64,000 nucleotides of DNA from Deroplatys truncata (taxonomy: Eukaryota; Arthropoda; Insecta; Mantodea; Mantidae): NCBI GenBank assembly GCA_030765065.1, contig CM060985.1:177632096-177696095 (forward strand), given 5' to 3'. The notes under the pieces are model-generated. The model saw only the letters and a program-made list of their open reading frames with translations. It did not search any database and was not told the origin of the DNA. Of the stretch, positions 5,826 through 59,368 are shown piece by piece; position 1 is the stretch's first letter; every line of letters begins with the position of its first letter. A program made the position numbers and the translations under genes.

Positions 5826-6494
5826 TATAAGCAAGCATTATGTAGTTTACAACCATTTTATAGGAATTTAGGCTTATAGGGAGCCGTTTAAATTTTCTGT
5901 ATGACATACATTAAAATATTGTATGGCTGTAACAATTAGATAGAACTAAACTATAAGGTTTATAGTGTCTAATAACACTAACATTTCTATCTATAAATGT
6001 TGATAATTTTTTGCTTTTTTTTCACAGACGAGTATATCCTTAAGCAGACACTAATGACTAGAGGGCATAACAACTATTCACTTCTCTCCTTGAAAGGGAA
6101 TACATGCAAGTGGTTATGTTGTTTATCGGTTCAACACGCCAGGTATTAACAATAAAATGCAGGGAAACAAACTAATATATCAAGACGCTCTCACGTATGT
6201 CAGCTGTAGATGCCGAATTATTTCATGGTTTACTTCCTACATTTTATAATGCATGAAATGTATTCAACAATTATGAAACATTGACTCGTGCCGTAATCAT
6301 AACGATTATTCACTTGTTGCATACTATTACTTCTATATTGTAGCACCTTACTCCAAGGGATGACTAGCCCCGAAGGGTGGCGTACACGTAGGGCTGTATG
6401 CTCAGATGGTAAGTGTGGGTTGCAGGTAGGGTATAGACGGGTGCGTTATAGGGCAAGGCGTCAGATTAAAGGTCCAGGGGTGGCGTATATAAAA
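5826..6494. other. Unassigned intergenic stretch
   Basis: AT-rich sequence with no gene, tandem repeat or SINE I can support. The right-hand 130 bp (6355-6490) is more GC-rich and has an open frame on the plus strand without known motifs. Confidence 0.4.
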
Positions 6495-19220: not shown

Positions 19221-19261
19221 AAGAATAGTTTGTATACCCTTTCTTTCTCCTTATGTTCTCC

Positions 19262-19490
19262 ATCAATCCGGACGAGATGGCGTTGCAGTAACCTATGCGA
19301 CTTGCATCGGGAGGTCCCAAATCAAGCTCCCGGGCTGACCGATCTGACGGAATGATTTTCAAGGTTTTCTTCGGTGGCTAGGCCAATACTGGTTTGAAGA
19401 ATTTGACCGGCAAATTTTACTATTATCCCGTTCATCACCTCATTTCATTTCGTACTTTTTCACCGCCGCACCAGTTATTAGGCTGGTCAC
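19262..19490 (+). repeat. SINE-B-like element, 5' part, upstream of the satellite
   Basis: This flank aligns, with substantial divergence, to SINE-B at 53272-53648. Shared pieces are a B-box-like GGTCCCAAATCAAGCTCCC, GGTTTTCTTCGG (GGTTTTCTCCGAG in SINE-B), TTCATCACCTCATTTCATTT and CACCAG..TAGGCTGGTCACC leading into CATCCTGG. The 5' half is weaker than the 3' half. The element continues into the 76-bp array, and its far 3' end appears after the array at 22366-22420. Confidence 0.6.
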
Positions 19491-22365
19491 CATCCTGGAT
19501 ATCCTATGATCCAGAGTTTATTTGCTAGTCGACAGGCTACTGACCCAAGACACTGGACTGATCACACATGCTGGAAATGCTATGAACAAGAGTTTGCTTG
19601 CTCCTCGACAGGCTACTGACCCAAGACACTGGACTGATCACACATCCTGGATATGCTATGAACAAGAGTTTGCTTGCTCCTCGACAGGCTACTGACCCAA
19701 GACACTGGACTGATCACACATCCTGGATATGCTATGAACAAGAGTTTGCTTGCTCCTCGACAGGCTACTGACCCAAGACATTGGGCTGATCACACATCCT
19801 GGATATGCTATGAACAAGAGTTTGCTTGCTCCTAGACAGGCTACTGACCCAAGACACTGGACTGATCACACATGCTGGATATGCTATGAACAAGAGTTTG
19901 CTTGCTCCTCGACAGGCTACTGACCCAAGACATTGGGCTGATCACACATCCTGCATATCCTATGATCTAGAGTTTGCTTGCTCCTCGACAGGCTACTGAC
20001 CCAAGACATTGGGCTGATCACACATCCTGGATATGCTATGCTCCAGAGTTTGCTTGCTCCTCGACAGGCTACTGACCCAAGACATTGGGCTGATCACACA
20101 TCCTGGATATCCTATGATCCAGAGTTTATTTGCTAGTCGACAGGCTACTGACCCAAGACACTGGACTGATCACACATGCTGGATATGCTATGAACAAGAG
20201 TTTGCTTGCTCCTCGACAGGCTACTGACCCAAGACACTGGACTGATCACACATCCTGGATATGCTAGGAACAAGAGTTGGCTTGCTCCTCGACAGGCTAC
20301 TGACACAACACATTGGCCTGCTCACACATCCTGGATATGCTATGATTCAGATTTTGCTTGCTCCTAGACAGATACTGACACAAGACAATGGGCTGATCAC
20401 ACATCCTGGATATGCTATGGTCAAGCGTTTGCTTGCTCCTCGACCGGCTACTGACCCAAGACATTGAACTGATCACCCATCCTGGATATGCTATGATCTA
20501 GAGTTTGCTTGCTCTTCCAAAGACTACTGACACCAGACATTGGTCTGATCACACATCCTGGATATGCTATGATCTAGAGTTTGCTTTCTCTTCCACAGAC
20601 TACTGACACAAGACATTCGGCAGATCACACATCCTGGATATGCTATGATCAAGAGTTTGCTTGCTCTTCCACAGACTACTGACACAAGACATTGGGCTGA
20701 TCACACATCCTGGATATGCTATGATCAAGAGTTTGATTGCTGCTCGACAGGCTACTGGCACAAGAATTTGGACTGATCTCACAACCTGGATATACTATGA
20801 ACCAGAGTTTGCTTGCTGCTCCACAGGCTACTGACACAAGACATTGGACTGATCACACATCCTGTATATGCTATGATCAAGAGTTTGCTTGCTGCTCGAC
20901 AGGCTACTGACACAAGAATTTGGACTGATCACACATCCTGGATATACTATGAACCAGAGTTTGCTTGCTGTTTGACAGGCTACTGACACAAGAATTTGGA
21001 CTGATCACACATCCTGGATGTGCTATGATCAAGAGTTTGCTTGTTCTTCCACAGGTTACTGACACAAGGCATTGGGCTGATCACACATTCTGGATATGCT
21101 ATGGTCTAGAGTTTGCTTCCTGCTCGACAGTCTACTGACACAATGCACTGGGCTGATCACACATCTCTGGATATGCTATTATCAAGAGTTTGCTTGCTCT
21201 TCCACAGGCTACTGACACAAGAATTTGGGCTGATCACGCATTCTGGATATGCTATGAACCAGAGTTTGCTTGCTCCTCGACAGGCTACTGACCCAAGTTA
21301 TTGGGCTGATCACACATCCTGTATATGGTATGAACCAGAGTTTGCTTGCTCCTCGACAGGCTACTGACCCAAGGCATTGGGCTGATCACACATCCTGGAT
21401 ATGCTATGATCAAGAGTTTGCTTGCTGCTCGACAGGCTACTGACACAAGAATTTGGACTGATCACACATCCTGGATATACTATGAACCAGAGTTTGCCTG
21501 CTGCTCGACCGGCTACTGACACAAGGCATTGGCTGATTACACATCCTGGATATGCTATGATCAAGAGTTTGCTTGCTGCTCGACAGGCTACTGGCACAAG
21601 AATTTGGACTGATCACACAACCTGGATATACTATGAACCAGAGTTTGCTTGCTGCTCGACAGGCTACTGACAAAAGGCATTGGGCTGATCACACATCCTG
21701 GATATGCTATGACAAGAGTTTGCTTGCTGCTCGGTAGGCTACTGACACAAGAATTTGGACTGATCACACATCCTGGATATACTATGATCCAGAGTTTGCT
21801 TGCACCTCAACAGACCACTGACCCAAGTTATTGGGCTGATCACACATCCTGGATATCCTATGATCTAGAGTTTGCTTACTCCTCGACAGGTTACTGAAAC
21901 AAGACATTGGGCTGATCACACATCCTGGATATCCTATGATCTAGAGTTTGCTTGCTCCTCGACAGGCTACTGACACAAGACATTGGGTTGATCACACATC
22001 CTGGATATCCTATGATCTAGAGCTTGCTTGCTCCTCGACAGGCTACTGACCCAAGATATTGGACTGATCACACATCCTGCATATCCTATGATCTAGAGTT
22101 TGCTTGCTCCTCGACAGGCTACTGACCCAAGATATTGGGCTGATCACACATCCTGGATATCCTATGATCTAGAGTTTGCTTGCTCCTCGACAGGCTACTG
22201 ACCCAAGATATTGGGCTGATCACACATCCTGGATATCCTATGATCTGGAGTTTGCTTGCTCCTCGACAGGCTACTGACCCAAGATATTGAGCTGATCACA
22301 CATCCTGCATATCCTATGATCTAGAGTTTGCTTGCTCCTCGACAGGCTACTGACCCAAGTTTTTG
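19484..22365 (+). repeat. 76-bp satellite array, about 38 units
   Basis: Direct tandem repeat with a 76-bp period (for example successive GACACTGGACTGATCACACA at 19549 and 19625). Every unit has TGATCACACATCCTGGATAT, then GAGTTTGCTTGCT and CAGGCTACTGAC. Unit types are clustered. Those with CTCCTCGACAGG and CCCAAGA dominate 19.5-20.5 kb and 21.8-22.36 kb. Units with CTCTTCCACAG occupy 20.5-20.7 kb. Between 20.7 and 21.8 kb, GATATGCTATGATCAAG and GATATACTATGAACCAG units alternate in a 152-bp dimer pattern. Frames through it are period artefacts because 76 is not divisible by three. The unit matches the 3' segment of SINE-B. Confidence 0.97.
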
Positions 22366-22420
22366 GCTTATAAGTTCTTGCGGGTGTAGTCCTTCAAAGT
22401 AGAGAGCAATCCGTTAATGG
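22366..22420 (+). repeat. SINE-B-like element, 3' end after the satellite
   Basis: After the last unit the sequence reads GGCTTATAAGTTCTTGCGGG, then TGTAGTCCTTCAAAGTAG. SINE-B at 53272-53648 (minus strand) has GCTTGTAAGTCCTGCGGGG, then TGTAAGTCCTACATAAG at the same place after CTGACCCCAGG. The array is thus bracketed by the two ends of one SINE-like element. Confidence 0.72.
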
Positions 22421-23055
22421 AGAAGTAGAAGTTCTCCCTAAATCGTCTCAGGACTTCAAGACAGAACACCGCATTCGCAGCTGTATCAGCAGAGAAAATC
22501 TCCGTTTGGATAACTTCTTCAGAACCCGAACAGCGGCGTTATTGCTAGTTAATAGCCAAACAGAACGATTATCAGCTTCAGCCTATGTACGCTCAGCTCT
22601 AAACCGCTTGCGTTTTTGCGGCAGCTTTCCAAAGTTTGAGATAAACGTTTACTCAGACGTGCTGTCCTGCACACTTGCCATTGAAATCGCAATATAAGCG
22701 ACACGCAATAATTGATAAAAGCTTACAAACATTTTTTATGATCACATAACTAATTTGTGGTACTGAAAAATATTGTTGCTATGGATCTGAAGTTGACATT
22801 CTCACATACAATGTGCTTGTCATACAACAGATGAAATCTCAATGCTGAAAGAAATGACCAAAGCTACTAGTGCGGAAAGTAAAACCATCATAATGCAAAC
22901 ACTAAGTTATTCTAAGTTAAAAAATCAATTCCAACATTTAACTTCATCATAGCTTTCAATATCGAAAGTTTCAACAATTGACTTCCTGGACTCATAAATT
23001 TACTGTTTCTTACAAGGAAATACCCAATAAATTCTTCACGTTGATATCTACATCT
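22421..23055. other. Unassigned intergenic stretch
   Basis: A 63-codon plus-strand frame at 22506-22697 has no recognised motif. No repeat from the other families is seen. Confidence 0.4.
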
Positions 23056-31514: not shown

Positions 31515-34500
31515 GTTAACCGTGTTCGTTGCTTTTGTAATTGTTAGCGGAATAACTAGTTACTTTGGTAGATGTTATTGTACCTGGTTATTTTGTATTC
31601 ATTACTTTCCTAACCTTTAATGGGTAAGTGGTCACTATTTTAGTTACTTTGTTAACCGTATTCGGTAATTAGCTATTTTGCATTTGTTATACATTTGTAA
31701 CAGTTACGGGGTCACAGTTAGTTTACATTCGTTGCTTTTGTAGCCGTCATTGGATAACTACTTATTCTGTATTCATTACTTTGGTAACTATCAATGGATA
31801 ACTAATTATTGTTTTAGTTACTTATGCAACGGTTACTGGGTAACTAGTATATGCGTTACTTCTGGAGCCATTATTGTGTAACTAGTTACTTTATATTCTC
31901 AATTTTTGTAATAGTTATTGGCTGACAGTTACTTTAAATTCGTTACTTTTGTGAAACTTACTGGGTAACTATTTATGTTTTAGTCATTACTTTTGTAAGT
32001 ATTAAAGGATAATGATACCTTTGTTTATTAAATTCGTAACAGTCATTACGTAACTAGTTATTTTTGTATTCTTTATATTTGTTATTATTATTGGAATATT
32101 TTGTATTCCTTACTTCTGTAACTACCAATGGATTAGCAGATACGCCTTAGTTACTTTGGCAAACGTTATTGGGTAATCAGTTACTTTGTATTCGTTACTC
32201 TTGTAACAGTTATTGGGTAACTAATTACTGCGGTTTTTACTTTAATAGGTATTATTGGGTAACCCGTTACTTTGTATTCGTTACCTTTGTAACAGTTATT
32301 GGGTAACTAATTACTGCTTCTGTTGCTTTGGTATGTGCTATCGGGTAACCCGTTACTTTGTATTCGTTACCTTTGAAACAGTTATTGGGTAACTAATTAC
32401 TGCTTCTGTTGCTTTGATATGTGCTATCGGGTAACCCGTTACTTTGTATTCGTTACCTTTGTAACAGTTATTGGGTAACTAATTACTGCTTCTGTTGCTT
32501 TGATATGTGCTATCGGGTAACCCGTTACTTTGTATTCGTTACCTTTGAAACAGTTATTGGGTAACTAATTACTGCTTCTGTTGCTTTGATATGTGCTATC
32601 GGGTAACCCGTTACTTTGTATTCGTTACCTTTGTAACAGTTATTGGGTAACTAATTACTGCTTCTGTTGCTTTGATATGTGCTATCGGGTAACCCGTTAC
32701 TTTATATTCGTTACCTTTGTAACAGTTATTGGGTAACTAATTACTGCGGTTTTTACTTTAATAGGTGTTATTGGGTAACCCGTTACTTTGTATTCGTTAG
32801 CTTTGTAACAGTTATTGGGTAACTAATTACTGCGGTTTTTACTTTAATAGGTGTTATTGGGTAACCCGTTACTTTGTATTCGTTACCTTTGTAACAGTTA
32901 TTGGGTAACTAATTACTGCTTCTGTTGCTTTGATATGTGCTATTGGGTAACCCGTTACTTTGTATTCGTTACCTTTGTAACAGTTATTGGATAACTAATT
33001 ACTGCTTTTGTTGGTTTGCTGGGGGTTACTGGGTAACCCGTTACTTTGTATTCGTTACTTTTGTGACAGTTATTGGGTAACTTGTTTCGTATTCGTTACC
33101 TTTGTAACATTTATTGGGTAACTTGATATTTCGTATTCGTTACCTTTGTAACAGTTATTGGGTAACGTGTTATTTCGTATTCGTTACTTTTGTAACATTT
33201 ACTGGGTAACGTGTTATTTCGTATTCGTTACTTTTGTAACATTTACTGGGTAACGTGTTATTTCGTATTCGTTACTTTTGTAACAGTTATTGGGTAACTT
33301 GATATTTCGTATTCGTTACTTTTGTAACAGTTATTGGGTAACTTGATATTTCGTATTCGTTACCTTTGTAACAGTTATTGGGTAACGTGTTATTTCGTAT
33401 TCGTTACCTTTGTAACAGTTATTGGGTAACGTGTTATTTCGTATTCGTTACCTTTGTAACATTTACTGGGTAACGTGTTATTTCGTATTCGTTACTTTTG
33501 TAACAGTTATTGGGTAACTTGTTTCGTATTCTTTACCTTTTGTAATAGTTATTGGGTAACTTATTATTCCGTATTCGTTACCTTTGTAACAGTTATTGGG
33601 TAACTTGATATTTCGTATTCGTTACCCTTGTAACAGTTATTGGGTAAGTTATTATTCCGTAATCGTTACCTTTGTAACGGTTATTGGGTAACTTGATATT
33701 TCGTATTCGTTACCTTTGTAACAGTTACTGGGTAACTTGTTATTCCGTATTCGTTACCTTTGTAACAGTTATTGGGTAACTTGATATTTTGTATTCGTTA
33801 CCTTTGTAACAGTTATTGGGTAACTTGATATTTCGTATTCGTTACCTTTGTAATAGTTATTGGATAACTTGATATTTCGTATTCGTTACCTTTGTAACAG
33901 TTATTGGGTAACTTATTATTCCGTATTCGTTACCTTTGTAACAGTTATTGGATAACCAGTTACTTTTCGTTCGTTACCTTTGTAACAGTTATTGGATAAC
34001 CAGTTACTTTTCGTTCGTTACCTTTGTAACAGTTATTGGATAACCAGTTACTTTTCGTTGGTTACTTTTGTAACGTTATTGGTAACCAGTTACTTTTCGT
34101 TCGTTACTTTTGTAACAGTTATTGGGTAACTTATTATTCCGTATTCGTTACCTTTGTAAGAGTTATTGGGTAACTTGATATTTCGTATTCGTTACCTTTG
34201 TAACAGTTATTGGATAACCAGTTACTTTTCGTTCGTTACCTTTGTAACAGTTATTGGATAACCAGTTACTTTTCGTTGGTTACTTTTGTAACGTTATTGG
34301 TAACCAGTTACTTTTCGTTCGTTACTTTTGTAACAGTTATTGGGTAACTTAGTATTTCGTATTAGTTACCTTTGTAACAGTTATTGGGTAACTTGATATT
34401 TCGTATTTGTTACTTTGGTAGGTGTTATTGGGTAACCAGTTACTTTGTGTTCGTTATTTTTGTAAACGTCATTAGGTAACTCGTTACTTTTGTATTCGTT

Positions 34501-34705
34501 ACATTTGTAACCGTTGTTGGTATACTTCGTATTTATTACTTTTGTAACTATTAATGGATAATCGGTCACTGCCTTCGTTACTTTGGTAACGTTATTGTGT
34601 AACTGGCTAGTTTGCACTCGTTATTGGGCAACGGGTTACTTTGTGTTCGTTGCTTCTGTACCCGTTGTGTTTAAGGTAACCGTTACAATGTAACCGTTTC
34701 GTTAT
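31515..34705. repeat. GTAAC-rich minisatellite, 44-bp and 86-bp units
   Basis: Tandem array of about 3.2 kb. The basic unit is about 44 bp, built from GTTATTGGGTAACTTGATAT, TTCGTATTCGTTAC and CTTTGTAACA. From about 32160 to 33000 the period is 86 bp, a dimer in which the second half is ACTGCTTCTGTTGC, TTTGATATGTGC and TATCGGGTAACCC. From 33050 to 34440 the 44-bp form and a variant with AACCAGTTACTTTTCGTTCG dominate. The ends (31.5-32.1 and 34.45-34.7 kb) are degenerate. GGTAAC and GTTACC occur in inverse within each unit, so units can form small hairpins. Frames within it are repeat artefacts. Confidence 0.96.
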
Positions 34706-44717: not shown

Positions 44718-45152
44718 TACAGGGTGAATCACCTAAAACTTGCACCACAAAATTGAAACTGCTATTGATGTGCAGTTTTCACAGCATTGATTGGTATTCA
44801 GGGGTTCGTACATTTAGCCTATAAAAATATTTTAATAACACTGAAAAGGTGTACTTTTTGAGCAAACATACAATTTTTAAAATGGAACAATGCCTAGTTA
44901 CATTAACAGAATAAAGGTAGGGTAAATTAGAATGTCAATGGTCTTTGTTGCAGGATTCTAGTGCAAGTGGTTTACGAGAAATCGTATTTTTAAAGTTTCC
45001 ACCCCGACAATTGTTTGTCCCATTCAACCTGCTTAGTTACTAGGTACGATGTTGTTATGTTTGTTTGCATTGTGTTTTCTGTTCATTGATTGCATTGCAA
45101 CTTGCTGGTCAGTTAGTTTGTGACAGTTCAAGCAGTAAGTCGTGAGTGGAAG

Positions 45153-46186
45153 ATGGGGTTTACTAATGCAGAAAAAGCCGACATGCTCATTCATGATGTA
45201 TGGAGAGGGTAGGAAGAATGCAGTTCATTCCTCTACGATGTATGCGGAAACGTATCCCAATAGACGTCAAACATCTTGGCAATTATTTATCAACCTCTTC
45301 AACCAATTACGTGAGAGTGGTACTGTAACACCTAGAAAACGTAACAGAAACAAACGAGTGACTGGAGAAGAGGCAGAAATTAATGTTTTGGCTGCCGTTG
45401 CAGTAGATCCGCAAATTAGTTTCCACACAATCGCACGAGGACGTGGCATAAGTCAGGCAAGTGTACTGCGCATTCTCCATCGACATGGTTCCATCCCTAT
45501 CACATCTCTCTCCATCAAGAGCTGCATGGAAACGATTTTGAGATTTGTGCTAACTTTTGTACATGCATTAAGACATGATACTCCAGATTCATCCTGTATC
45601 TTGTTTAGCGATGAGGCAACATTTACTATTCGTGGCCAGGTAAACCGCAGAAGCATGCACTATTGGTTTGTTGACAATCCCCGTTGGCTTCGTCAGTTGG
45701 AACGTCAGTGTCCATGGAGTTTAAACGTGTGGTGTGATATTGAACCACCAGCTCATAGGCCCTTTGTTCGTAGAAGGAACAATGAACTCGCACAAGTATC
45801 GCAGTCTCCTGACAGTCCATCTGCCATAGGTGCTAGAAGACGTTCCTATGCAGACTAGCAGGAACCTGTGGTACCAACATGACGAAGTGCGTACTACAAC
45901 TTTTCTAAACGGATTGTTTCCAAATCGATGGATTGGACGAAAGGGATCTGCACCTTGGCCGGCCCGTTCACCGGATCTGACCCCTTTATATGTTTTTCTG
46001 TGGGAAAGGCTGAAAGACACTGTCCACAAGGATGTACCAACTACACCAGACGATATGAAACGACATATTACTGCTGCCTGCTCTGAAATTTCCGCAGAAA
46101 TGCTAGAACGTGTGCAGCAGTCTTTCTATAGCAAACTGGAAGTGTGTGGTGAAGCTGCCGGTGGTCATTTTGAACACAACCTTTGA
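45153..46186 (+). pseudogene. Tc1/mariner-like transposase, third catalytic residue lost
   Basis: Start at the ATG at 45153 (MGFTNAEKADMLI), then a frameshift into a long frame (to 45858). That frame has YPNRRQTSWQLF, LRESGTVTPRKRNR, EINVLAAVAVDPQIS and GISQASVLRILHRH: helix-turn-helix segments in the usual order. CILFSDEATF carries the first catalytic aspartate, followed by MHYWFVDNPRWLRQ and SLNVWCDI. A further shift leads to WYQHDE with the second aspartate and PARSPDLTPLYVFLW, where the usual aspartate after PL is tyrosine. The C-terminus runs to GGHFEHNL and a stop at 46186. The segment after SLNVWCDI is shortened by roughly 30 codons. It is inactive by residue loss and frameshifts. Confidence 0.85.
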
Positions 46187-52795: not shown

Positions 52796-54005
52796 GAAAT
52801 CTGATGTTTTGCACTCACACGACTTTCTTTACTCTTATACAAACTATTTTTACAAACGATTATTCTCAATCTACTTCATGTTAATCGAGATAAAAATTTG
52901 CACAAACTATCTTATTGCTAACTTTCTTGTAGATGCAAGGAGGATTGGTAGGCTTTAAGCGATAGTCAAATATTTTAAGAGCTTGTTCCTATGTGGAGCA
53001 TTTCACTCTCTTTGTATGTCCAGGATATAAAAAATAATAACGAATTCCCATTTGAGGAAACGTATAAGTATTGGGAAATTTACTCCACAAAAAATGTGTA
53101 TGACAAATTATGTGTTTTAACAACATCTAGACTTTTTGTTAGTAACATTTTGTCTTATCTCTTACACCTTACCAGTTATGCGAAAGTCATTCAGTATGAA
53201 GGTGACTTTTGGGGACATTCCCAGAAAATTCAAGATATACATTTCATTTGCAATGAAAATACCTAAAACATTCATTCATTATCTGTTTACCCTCCTCTTA
53301 TGTAGGACTTACACCCCGCAGGACTTACAAGCGGGTGCCTGGGGTCAGAGGCCCGCCGAGGAGCAGACACTCATGGATCAGACAGAGCAACCAGGATGGG
53401 TGATCAGCCCGATGCCTGGTATGGGATGAAGGAAGTAGATGAAACGAAATATTGGTGAAATGGATGAAAGGAAAGGTGATGATGGAGCTGTTGGTGGAAT
53501 GAATGGCGAGAGAAACCGGAGAACTCGGAGAAAACCCGCCCAGACGCCGCTTCGTCCACCACAAATCTCACATGCAGGTCCCTGGGATTGAACCCTGGCC
53601 GCCTCGGTGGGAGGCGAGCGGTCAAACCACTCGGCCACGGCGCCGCCTACCTTAAACATATGATATTTTAATCAAAATTTTTAGAGCCATTTTTGAGGAA
53701 ATCAAGATTTTCGAAAAATGTTTCATGTAAAGGGTAGTTTCGGAAGGAGGTTTTCTTGAAGATCTGTGTGTCGTATTCTTGGAAAATACTAAACTAAAAT
53801 ACCAAGTTTGTTATTTAACAAACTTTTAGTTTTTGAGTTATGATGTTCACAAACATACAGACACACACGCGGACATGTTTTCAAAAGTCCTTATTTGGAT
53901 TCAGGGCACCTCAAAACATGTATTTCCGGCAAAATCTCGGTGTCGAATTTTTGGATGGAAAGCAACACTTCCCCTAATTACTTTTCGTAATAGAGAAAGT
54001 AAAAA
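52796..54005 (-). repeat. Family T repeat interrupted by SINE-B
   Basis: T copy on the minus strand from GATGTTTTGCACTCACACGA (about 52800) to GTAATAGAGAAAGTAAAAA (about 54003). The core is broken at 53271 by SINE-B and resumes at CCTTAAACATATGATATTTT (53650). It is diverged from the reference copy. Confidence 0.82.
53272..53648 (-). repeat. SINE-B, tRNA-derived, with 11-bp target duplication
   Basis: Complete SINE, about 377 bp, read on the minus strand. The head is like a class II (Leu/Ser-type) tRNA: GGCCGAGTGGTTTGACCGC (A box) and AGGGTTCAATCCCAGGG (B box). The body has GGGTTTTCTCCGAGTTCTCC, then a pyrimidine-rich part, GGGCTGATCACCCATCCTGG, GCTCCTCGGCGGGCCTCTGAC and GCTTGTAAGTCCTGCGGGG. 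ACCTAAAACAT (53261-53271) and ACCTTAAACAT (53649-53659) flank it. Its 3' segment of about 77 bp is homologous to the satellite unit at 19.5-22.4 kb. Confidence 0.9.
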
Positions 54006-58248: not shown

Positions 58249-59368
58249 CGAGGGCCATACAGAAAATAAATTTTCCTATTTTTTTAAAACAAAGAAGGCG
58301 TAGCTACATAAGAAACTATATTGTTAACAGGTACAGCACAGTTTGAGCTATTTTTCGACATAGTCACCAGAAGAATTGAGACACTTTTCATATAGCGGGG
58401 TCTACTTGTATTCCTGTGTCGTAGAAGTCTGCCGCCTGTGAATGACACCAGCGTGTCACAATCGTGTTCAGCTCTTCGTCGTCGTCAAAACGCTGACCGG
58501 AGGACAGGCATTTCATGAGGTGCAAGAAACGATGGAAATCGCTGGAAACAAGGTCAGGACTGTGTGTTGGATGATCAAACAGCTCCCAAACGAACTCCTG
58601 CAGAACAGTTGCTGTGTGCTGAGCCTTATATGGACGAGCTTTGTCGTAGAGAAGCAAACCACCTGCACTAAACATTCCACGCCTCTTGTTTTGAACGGCA
58701 GATCGCAATTCCCGCAGTGTTTCACAGTAACTGTCAGTGTTCACTATTTCACCTCTGGGCAGGAAGTCAATGAGCAGGATGCCCTTCCCGTCCCAGAACA
58801 CCGTGAACTCACTTTCTGTACCGACACAGTCTGTTTGAATTTCGTCTTGACCGGAGATCCACAGCGTGACGCTAATGGATGGACTGTTTCGAGGTTTCCG
58901 GGGTAAAGGGCGACAACCATGTCTCGTCGCCGTCATCATGATACCACTGCTGAAATGCCAATGCTGCTACTAAGCGTTTCGTTTTGTGCTCGGGTGTCAG
59001 GATTTTCGGCATCCACCTGTCACACATTTTCCTGAACAGCAGGTGCTTGGTGAGAAGTTCATGCAACAAGGCTGCTGAGCTCCGTAATCGTGAAGCGACG
59101 GTTCTCCACGATGCGCTGCCGCATCAGCTCAACAACGTCTACTGCTGTTTTCATCGTGGACACTATGACGGCTCGTAGTCGGTGGGAGAACGAATAAGAG
59201 CCGTCATTTCGGACCACTGCTGCCGCGCTACTGGCACCAGGCGGGACCTATCCAGCCGCCATATGATTGATACGGGATAAATCTGTTACGCATGCGCAAT
59301 TTTCCCGGCGAAATACGTTCACTTTAATGGAAACAAAATCGGAAATCTTGCTTTCTGAATGCCCCTCG
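58249..59368 (-). mobile_element. mariner element, 1120 bp
   Basis: Termini CGAGGGCCATACAGAAAATA and, inverse, CGAGGGGCATTCAGAAAGCA. TA lies on both sides (58247-58248, 59369-59370). The transposase is on the minus strand. The element is about 160 bp shorter than a standard mariner. Confidence 0.88.
58348..59154 (-). pseudogene. mariner transposase (SETMAR-like), frameshifted
   Basis: ATG at 59154 (MKTAVDVVELMRQRIVENRR), then a shifted frame 58872-59069 with CDRWMPKILTPEHKTKR and YHDDGDETWLSPFTPETSKQ, which holds the first catalytic aspartate. Frame 58388-58939 has FTVFWDGKGILLIDFLPRGE, then GGLLLYDKARPY (second aspartate; the usual HDNARPH has become YDKARPY), and HSPDLVSSDFHRFLHL with the third. 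A final shift gives YEKCLNSSGDYVEK and the stop at 58348. The N-terminal helix-turn-helix region is shortened, which explains the reduced element length. Confidence 0.86.

Follow-up and report, generated by a model that had tools for sequence, protein, structure and literature searches.

A 76-bp satellite array inside a SINE insertion of the mantis Deroplatys truncata and its probable origin by amplification in place

The growth of satellites out of SINE sequence is in itself an already known process, as witnessed by the SINE-derived satellites (sSats) described in squamates (Vassetzky et al. 2023, PMC10702118) and by the Haber-Louis model of minisatellite birth, in which repeats of 5-10 bp flanking a motif start a duplication that is followed by expansion (PMC6947457). 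Whether sSats are restricted to squamates is left uncertain by the squamate report (PMC10702118). Tandem repeats inside SINE copies have also been recorded for mouse B1 (1998) and as Alu-derived minisatellites (Jurka and Gentles 2006) (PMC9659126, PMC6947457), and (GTCY)n microsatellites of Helicoverpa zea have been attributed to HzSINE1 (PMC9659126). A literature search by title found no report of a SINE-derived satellite in arthropods, which leaves such an absence unproven.

Here, we describe a 76-bp satellite array in a stretch of 64,000 nucleotides, hereafter the window, from the mantis D. truncata (GCA_030765065.1, contig CM060985.1, positions 177,632,096 to 177,696,095), together with its relatives in the 4.29-Gb assembly (818 contigs), which holds at least two related SINE families, SINE-A and SINE-B. 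An earlier interpretation made from the letters of the window, the sequence-only reading, had already drawn attention to the array, and its claims are taken up where the results bear on them.

The window array and its parent family

At 19477-22359, TRF delimits a 76-bp unit in 38.0 copies, with 89% matches, and an alignment of the form head-(unit)n-tail, likewise with 38 units, gives 19268-22428 for the element in its entirety, in agreement with the unit length and the approximately 38 copies originally reported. The components of the insertion are listed in Table 1. The head is tRNA-SINE-like, and a GGTTCAAAC-type motif that may be a Pol III B box was seen by eye; ARAGORN detected no tRNA and Rfam, at the gathering threshold, no match within the window. 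Aligned with the SINE-A majority sequence, the left flank of the array scores 177 (maximum of 28 in 300 shuffles) and the right flank 77 (maximum of 25 in 1000 shuffles), which bears out the proposal that SINE flanks bracket the array. The target-site duplication is imperfect, with 12 of its 14 bases alike, and its own-flank score of 9.0 is attained in 8 of 1190 pairs of swapped flanks, with 0 of 68 when one flank is taken from the window. Since SINE ends lie on both sides and a target-site duplication lies outside them, the array most likely sits within a single SINE insertion.

Table 1. Components of the array-bearing insertion and the SINE-B copy of the window
Feature	Position in window	Strand	Basis
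Target-site duplication, left copy GTTCTCCATCAATC	19255..19268	+	Flank comparison, swapped-flank score
SINE-A head and body	19269..19479	+	Model alignment, starting at 19268; 22% diverged from SINE-A model
Left seed-repeat copy, decayed: CCAGTTATT (model CCAGGCATT)	Closes the head/body part at 19479	+	Sequence reading
38 tandem units of ~76 bp, single register	19480..22364	+	TRF, model alignment; ends by sequence reading
SINE-A 3' region after the amplified segment (GGCTTATAAGTTCTTGCGGGTGT..CAATCCGTTAA)	22365..22417	+	Model alignment
Decayed simple 3' tail GGAGAAGTAGAA	22418..22430	+	Compared with AAG-rich tails of other SINE-A copies
Target-site duplication, right copy GTTCTCCCTAAATC	22431..22444	+	Flank comparison, swapped-flank score
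SINE-B, single segment, AATG-tailed, not array parent	53272..53648; also delimited as 53264-53652	-	Sequence comparison

The sequence-only reading had named SINE-B as the source family. The window majority unit does resemble the SINE-B consensus segment, as that reading had noticed (local score of 63, where 2000 shuffles gave at most 27), but several gaps are needed to align the two, whereas 73 of its 76 positions are identical to the single segment of SINE-A, a separate family (40 scored of 713 first-look candidates). The two families have their 3' half in common, with 82% alignment over ~200 bp of the 3' parts, and SINE-B carries a diverged version of the 76-bp segment at the equivalent place. 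The SINE-A model used throughout is hand-made and 358 bp long, its unit being identical to the one that 30 single copies give by majority, and ~65 bp of it follow the amplified segment. The amplified segment is consequently not the very 3' end of the SINE.

SINE-B is young, the best-matching 30 fetched copies being 94.5-98.3% identical to their own consensus, and an exact-anchor pattern finds its single-segment form at 5850 genomic places; the window copy is nested in an interspersed repeat of a different kind, of which the window contains about a dozen copies. The sequence-only reading had suggested a search for SINE-B copies with tandem 3' segments; a multi-unit SINE-B pattern, which would miss other breakpoints, returned one genomic match, by eye a SINE-A copy. 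SINE-B is rejected as the parent on two grounds: the unit is nearer to SINE-A, and no clear multi-unit copy of SINE-B came to light.

Altogether, the data support the view that the window array arose when a segment of a SINE was amplified where it stood, the two SINE halves still lying on either side. This central proposal of the sequence-only reading draws its support from the SINE ends, the target-site duplication, the 259 single-unit and 52 multi-unit places described below, and variants specific to individual loci. The window array would then represent the old and heterogeneous outcome of amplification at one insertion.

Other features were seen in the window: a second tandem array at 32150-34651, with a 44/86-bp period and GTTACTTTTGTAACAG-like units, a fragment at 58388-58963 (-) resembling Transposase_1 (PF01359, E = 4e-12), and a fragment at 45139-45855 (+) that weakly resembles DUF4817, below the cut-off.

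Single-unit and multi-unit copies across the genome

The rarity that the sequence-only reading had implied is not what the genome holds, as the array proves to be one of many. With exact anchors, a head-unit-unit pattern matches 52 genomic places and a head-single segment-tail pattern 259, both reversed-pattern controls giving 0; multi-unit copies therefore make up 52 of 311 scored places and single-unit copies are about five times commoner, with the reservation that exact anchors miss diverged copies, such as the window's own, in the single and multi classes alike. A DNA search with the right array end locates the unit at many places (40 scored of 1617 candidates), and at least 35 array loci, the window included, were taken from its rows. 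Patterns and search together yield at least 86 multi-unit loci, of which the 34 joined to the 52 pattern loci were hand-picked among the matches listed, 16 of them without parsing.

SINE ends accompany most of these arrays. Among 17 other multi-unit loci parsed from the DNA search, both SINE ends were recognised at 11, one end at 5 and none at 1, the last being the C3:26.5 Mb locus, for which neither end lies in the fetched part. The sequence-only reading had regarded a satellite widespread without SINE flanks as an argument against itself; the satellite is widespread, yet with a SINE end at 16 of the 17 parsed loci. Three arrays, at C3:26.5, C7:299.0 and C12:20.7 Mb, have a visible left edge and no head that could be recognised.

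SINE-A copies were inserted by retroposition, as seen from their target-site duplications and AAG-rich 3' tails. The own flanks exceed the 95th percentile of swapped flanks at 8 of 17 multi-unit loci (p = 2e-8) and 8 of 18 single-unit loci (p = 4e-7), and the AAG-rich tails were found in other SINE-A copies, so that the family shows both the target-site duplication and the simple 3' tail of tRNA-derived SINEs.

The sizes of the arrays are unevenly distributed. At the 52 pattern loci, at least four head-to-tail units are present in 47 and at least six in 39, most of these running beyond the fetched end, and four other loci combine seven units with at least a partial tail. Arrays of two to five units account for nine loci (two units at two loci, three at three, four at two and five at two), and all three 3-unit loci as well as one 4-unit locus end without a full tail. 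So few short arrays are not obviously expected from stepwise growth, and this counts against a reading by amplification in situ.

The arrays also differ from single copies in chromosomal position. Of the 86 multi-unit loci, 62 fall in the terminal 15% of the chromosome (36 of 52 for the pattern loci). For single-unit copies the figure is 13 of 51 (Fisher p = 1.5e-7), counted among those of the 259 that carry one particular allele and for which a list across all chromosomes was obtainable. On C16 (707 Mb), 0 of 29 multi-unit loci lie strictly between 108.1 and 632.1 Mb, as compared with five of eight single copies. C5 is an exception, since nine of its ten multi-unit loci are internal, at 132-154 of 211 Mb. 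When C1-C7 are taken alone, the end bias is not significant for 16 pattern loci against 96 single copies (p = 0.20) and reaches p = 0.03 with the added arrays (24 loci). Another multi-unit locus occurs within 2 Mb of 39 of the 86 multi-unit loci and of 4 of the 51 single copies, a comparison uncorrected for unequal locus numbers. The end bias of the arrays may reflect crossovers.

Two regional observations can be added. The nine clustered SINE-A loci at C5:132-154 Mb may mark a misplaced or fused chromosome arm. Near 611, 638 and 672 Mb, C16 contains clustered nuclear copies of mitochondrial COX1, several of them in near-regular repeats, the genome having 99 COX1 matches in total (96 scored of 991 candidates).

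A short direct repeat as candidate seed and the rival origins

In the SINE-A model, the segment is delimited by AGGCATTGG, a 9-bp direct repeat whose two copies lie exactly 76 bp apart at the segment ends, and the unit junctions of the arrays join segment end to segment start via this repeat. At the 52 pattern loci, the first unit junction is set by the pattern itself; in the arrays recovered by the DNA search, on which no register was imposed, 76 is the predominant spacing, with irregular stretches in arrays L053, L054 and L065. Comparing the seed-repeat allele in the head with that of the first internal junction provided no significant crossover map (p = 0.34, for the 50 of 52 loci that were usable, two with another base being omitted).

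Among the exact direct repeats of the model, AGGCATTGG ranks second in length after TGTAAGTCCT, of 10 bp and at a distance of 16. This longest repeat has itself been amplified: a triple GTAAGTCCT pattern gives 63 matches, at 28 places with three or more copies, including an array of ~750 bp with a period of roughly 15 bp at C16:53995776-53996530 and a short array at C7:234.115 Mb. A single one of these matches was viewed as letters, and the SINE membership of the rest is presumed. Such amplification supports direct repeats as start points. Repeat length alone is not predictive, since the longer and closer repeat TGTAAGTCCT, present in both families, grew far less often. The counterpart of the seed in the SINE-B consensus is CCAGGCA, of 7 bp and at a distance of 77; as SINE-B is younger than SINE-A, the contrast between the families does not isolate an effect of the repeat.

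These findings lead to a model of recurrent in situ amplification started by the short repeat AGGCATTGG and continued by unequal exchange, to which we assign a probability of roughly 0.8. The starting state would be a retroposed SINE-A copy, with a tRNA-like head and a body in which the 76-bp segment lies between two AGGCATTGG copies. Mispairing of the two short repeats, by replication slippage or unequal exchange, would produce the initial duplication in situ; with a pair of 76-bp units in place, unequal exchange and conversion could expand and homogenise the array, and expansion may proceed faster where recombination is more frequent.

The relationships among units bear directly on this model. 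In a set of 679 units drawn from 68 loci, 61% have their closest relative within their own locus, a share that falls to 2.1% with shuffled labels, and the mean distance between units is 0.081 within loci and 0.118 between loci. First units stand further from the rest of their own array (0.097) than middle units do (0.080; 61 loci, p = 0.0005). This set comprises one fetched stretch per locus and units with at least 65 readable positions; L047 and L051, of two units each, were set aside, the C12 array being represented by L055 rather than L054 and the C3 array by L050 rather than L067/L068. By eye, ten arrays display no clear periodicity that would indicate a higher-order unit structure.

Variants shared between loci point in the other direction. 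As majority base, 72A is found at 31 of the 68 array loci and in 4 of the 30 single copies (p = 0.003); the corresponding counts are 10 and 0 for 12A (p = 0.03) and 15 and 2 for 67A (p = 0.08). These 30 single copies were selected and over-represent one head allele. The excess of 12A is less sure than these figures suggest, because by eye 12A occurs in 4 of 51 listed single copies, as compared with 6 of 52 first units and 8 of 52 second units. At 14 of the 15 loci where 67A is in the majority, 72A is so as well. Sharing of the three variants exceeds what independent origins would lead one to expect and counts against full independence of the arrays; some degree of shared ancestry or of exchange between arrays is likely.

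Exchange is the essence of one alternative, in which amplification in situ was followed by the transfer of units from one array locus to another, through spread or conversion, as a shared satellite library concentrated near chromosome ends. The 72A excess, the joint majority of 67A and 72A in 14 of the 68 loci and the proximity of multi-unit loci to one another, with locus numbers uncorrected, are what such a library would leave behind. Given that 61% of units have their nearest relative in their own locus and that no array of foreign units has been demonstrated, we regard a library of this kind as improbable, though worth keeping in mind.

Shared ancestry would take another form if a SINE-A lineage already containing two or more units had been retroposed to many sites, with array lengths changing later. 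SVA is a VNTR-type SINE/retroposon of this sort. A lineage of this type would account for the single register of the arrays, the recurrence of 72A, 67A and 12A at many loci, 67A and 72A together, and the rarity of loci with two to five units (9 of 52). It fits poorly with the grouping of units by locus, with the presence of 12A in unit 2 at just 8 of 52 loci, with an end bias that single-unit copies do not have in common, and with the heads: in a tree of 56 multi-unit and 29 single-unit copies, built from rows with at least 120 head positions, the labels change 24 times, against 24.1 when shuffled, and no multi-unit clade was seen among the 85 heads, multi-unit heads being scattered among single-unit ones in a tree that is weak and has almost no resolution. 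Retroposition of an already multi-unit lineage is accordingly an unlikely origin, and one multi-unit founder for all arrays is not favoured, with 12A at so few second units and the heads so dispersed.

That the satellite came first and was later captured by a SINE is very unlikely: the arrays are abundant and three of them have an edge with no recognisable SINE head, but single-unit places outnumber multi-unit ones (259 to 52), SINE-B holds a diverged segment in the same position, and a SINE end accompanies nearly all parsed arrays. An assembly artefact is less credible still, for although assemblies can mis-size tandem arrays, the units of the window array are heterogeneous (89% matches) and SINE ends and target-site duplications recur at several loci.

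Returning to in situ amplification from the short repeat, one may tentatively go further and propose that the seed is built into the family, the 9-bp repeat making each dispersed SINE-A copy a potential start of the 76-bp satellite. About one sixth of the scored copies would have been amplified, and the local recombination rate rather than the sequence would decide which. Runaway growth after the first duplication could then leave few intermediates. This extension is doubtful on present data; if it were true, the genome would amount to a replicated natural experiment on satellite birth.

Comparison with known systems

With unexpanded copies counted, a candidate seed defined, many loci available and a regional bias recorded, the step from dispersed repeat to satellite could become measurable, beyond single examples. 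Three things together make for a clean case: a host among the arthropods, many arrays with SINE halves on both sides, and single-unit controls that were counted.

In both squamate sSats (PMC10702118) and the SINE-A arrays, the units are SINE parts, of ~70-290 nt in squamates and, in SINE-A, of 76 bp out of 358 bp. Squamate arrays have a few to hundreds of units at many loci per genome, and the SINE-A arrays are similar, the four or more head-to-tail units of an sSat being represented by 38 in the window. Terminal units continue into the SINE in both systems, and at the window SINE sequence extends beyond both array ends; a subtelomeric preference is likewise common to both, holding for SINE-A overall, with C5 and C1-C7 taken alone as exceptions. 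The two differ in that squamate sSats mostly keep one SINE end, both ends being a minor variant (PMC10702118), while both are present at 11 of 17 parsed SINE-A loci. The terms 'direct repeat' and 'microhomology' do not occur in the main text of PMC10702118, whereas the amplified segment of the SINE-A model has a 9-bp repeat at its two ends. The host is here an arthropod, and the number of single-unit copies was determined to serve as a control, two further differences from the squamate work as presented in PMC10702118. The genome itself attests to an arthropod host by 141 matches to PF00379, a cuticle family that marks arthropods, as against 0 in 14 control genomes, those among them that are named being prokaryotes.

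The B1- and Alu-derived repeats consist of units just a few bases long, (GGCAGA)n and (CGGGAGGC)n (PMC9659126, PMC6947457), unlike the 76-bp unit of SINE-A. The HzSINE1 case resembles ours as an insect tandem repeat linked to an element named SINE, and differs in being a microsatellite and in concerning an element labelled MITE-like, class II (PMC9659126). As in the Haber-Louis model (PMC6947457), short flanking repeats would provide the start, and the unexpanded SINE-A sequence indeed carries a direct repeat of 5-10 bp, AGGCATTGG, at both unit ends. Unlike in the summary of that model (PMC6947457), the SINE-A seed belongs to a dispersed family, whose model sequence contains it, and the same start can recur at many loci.
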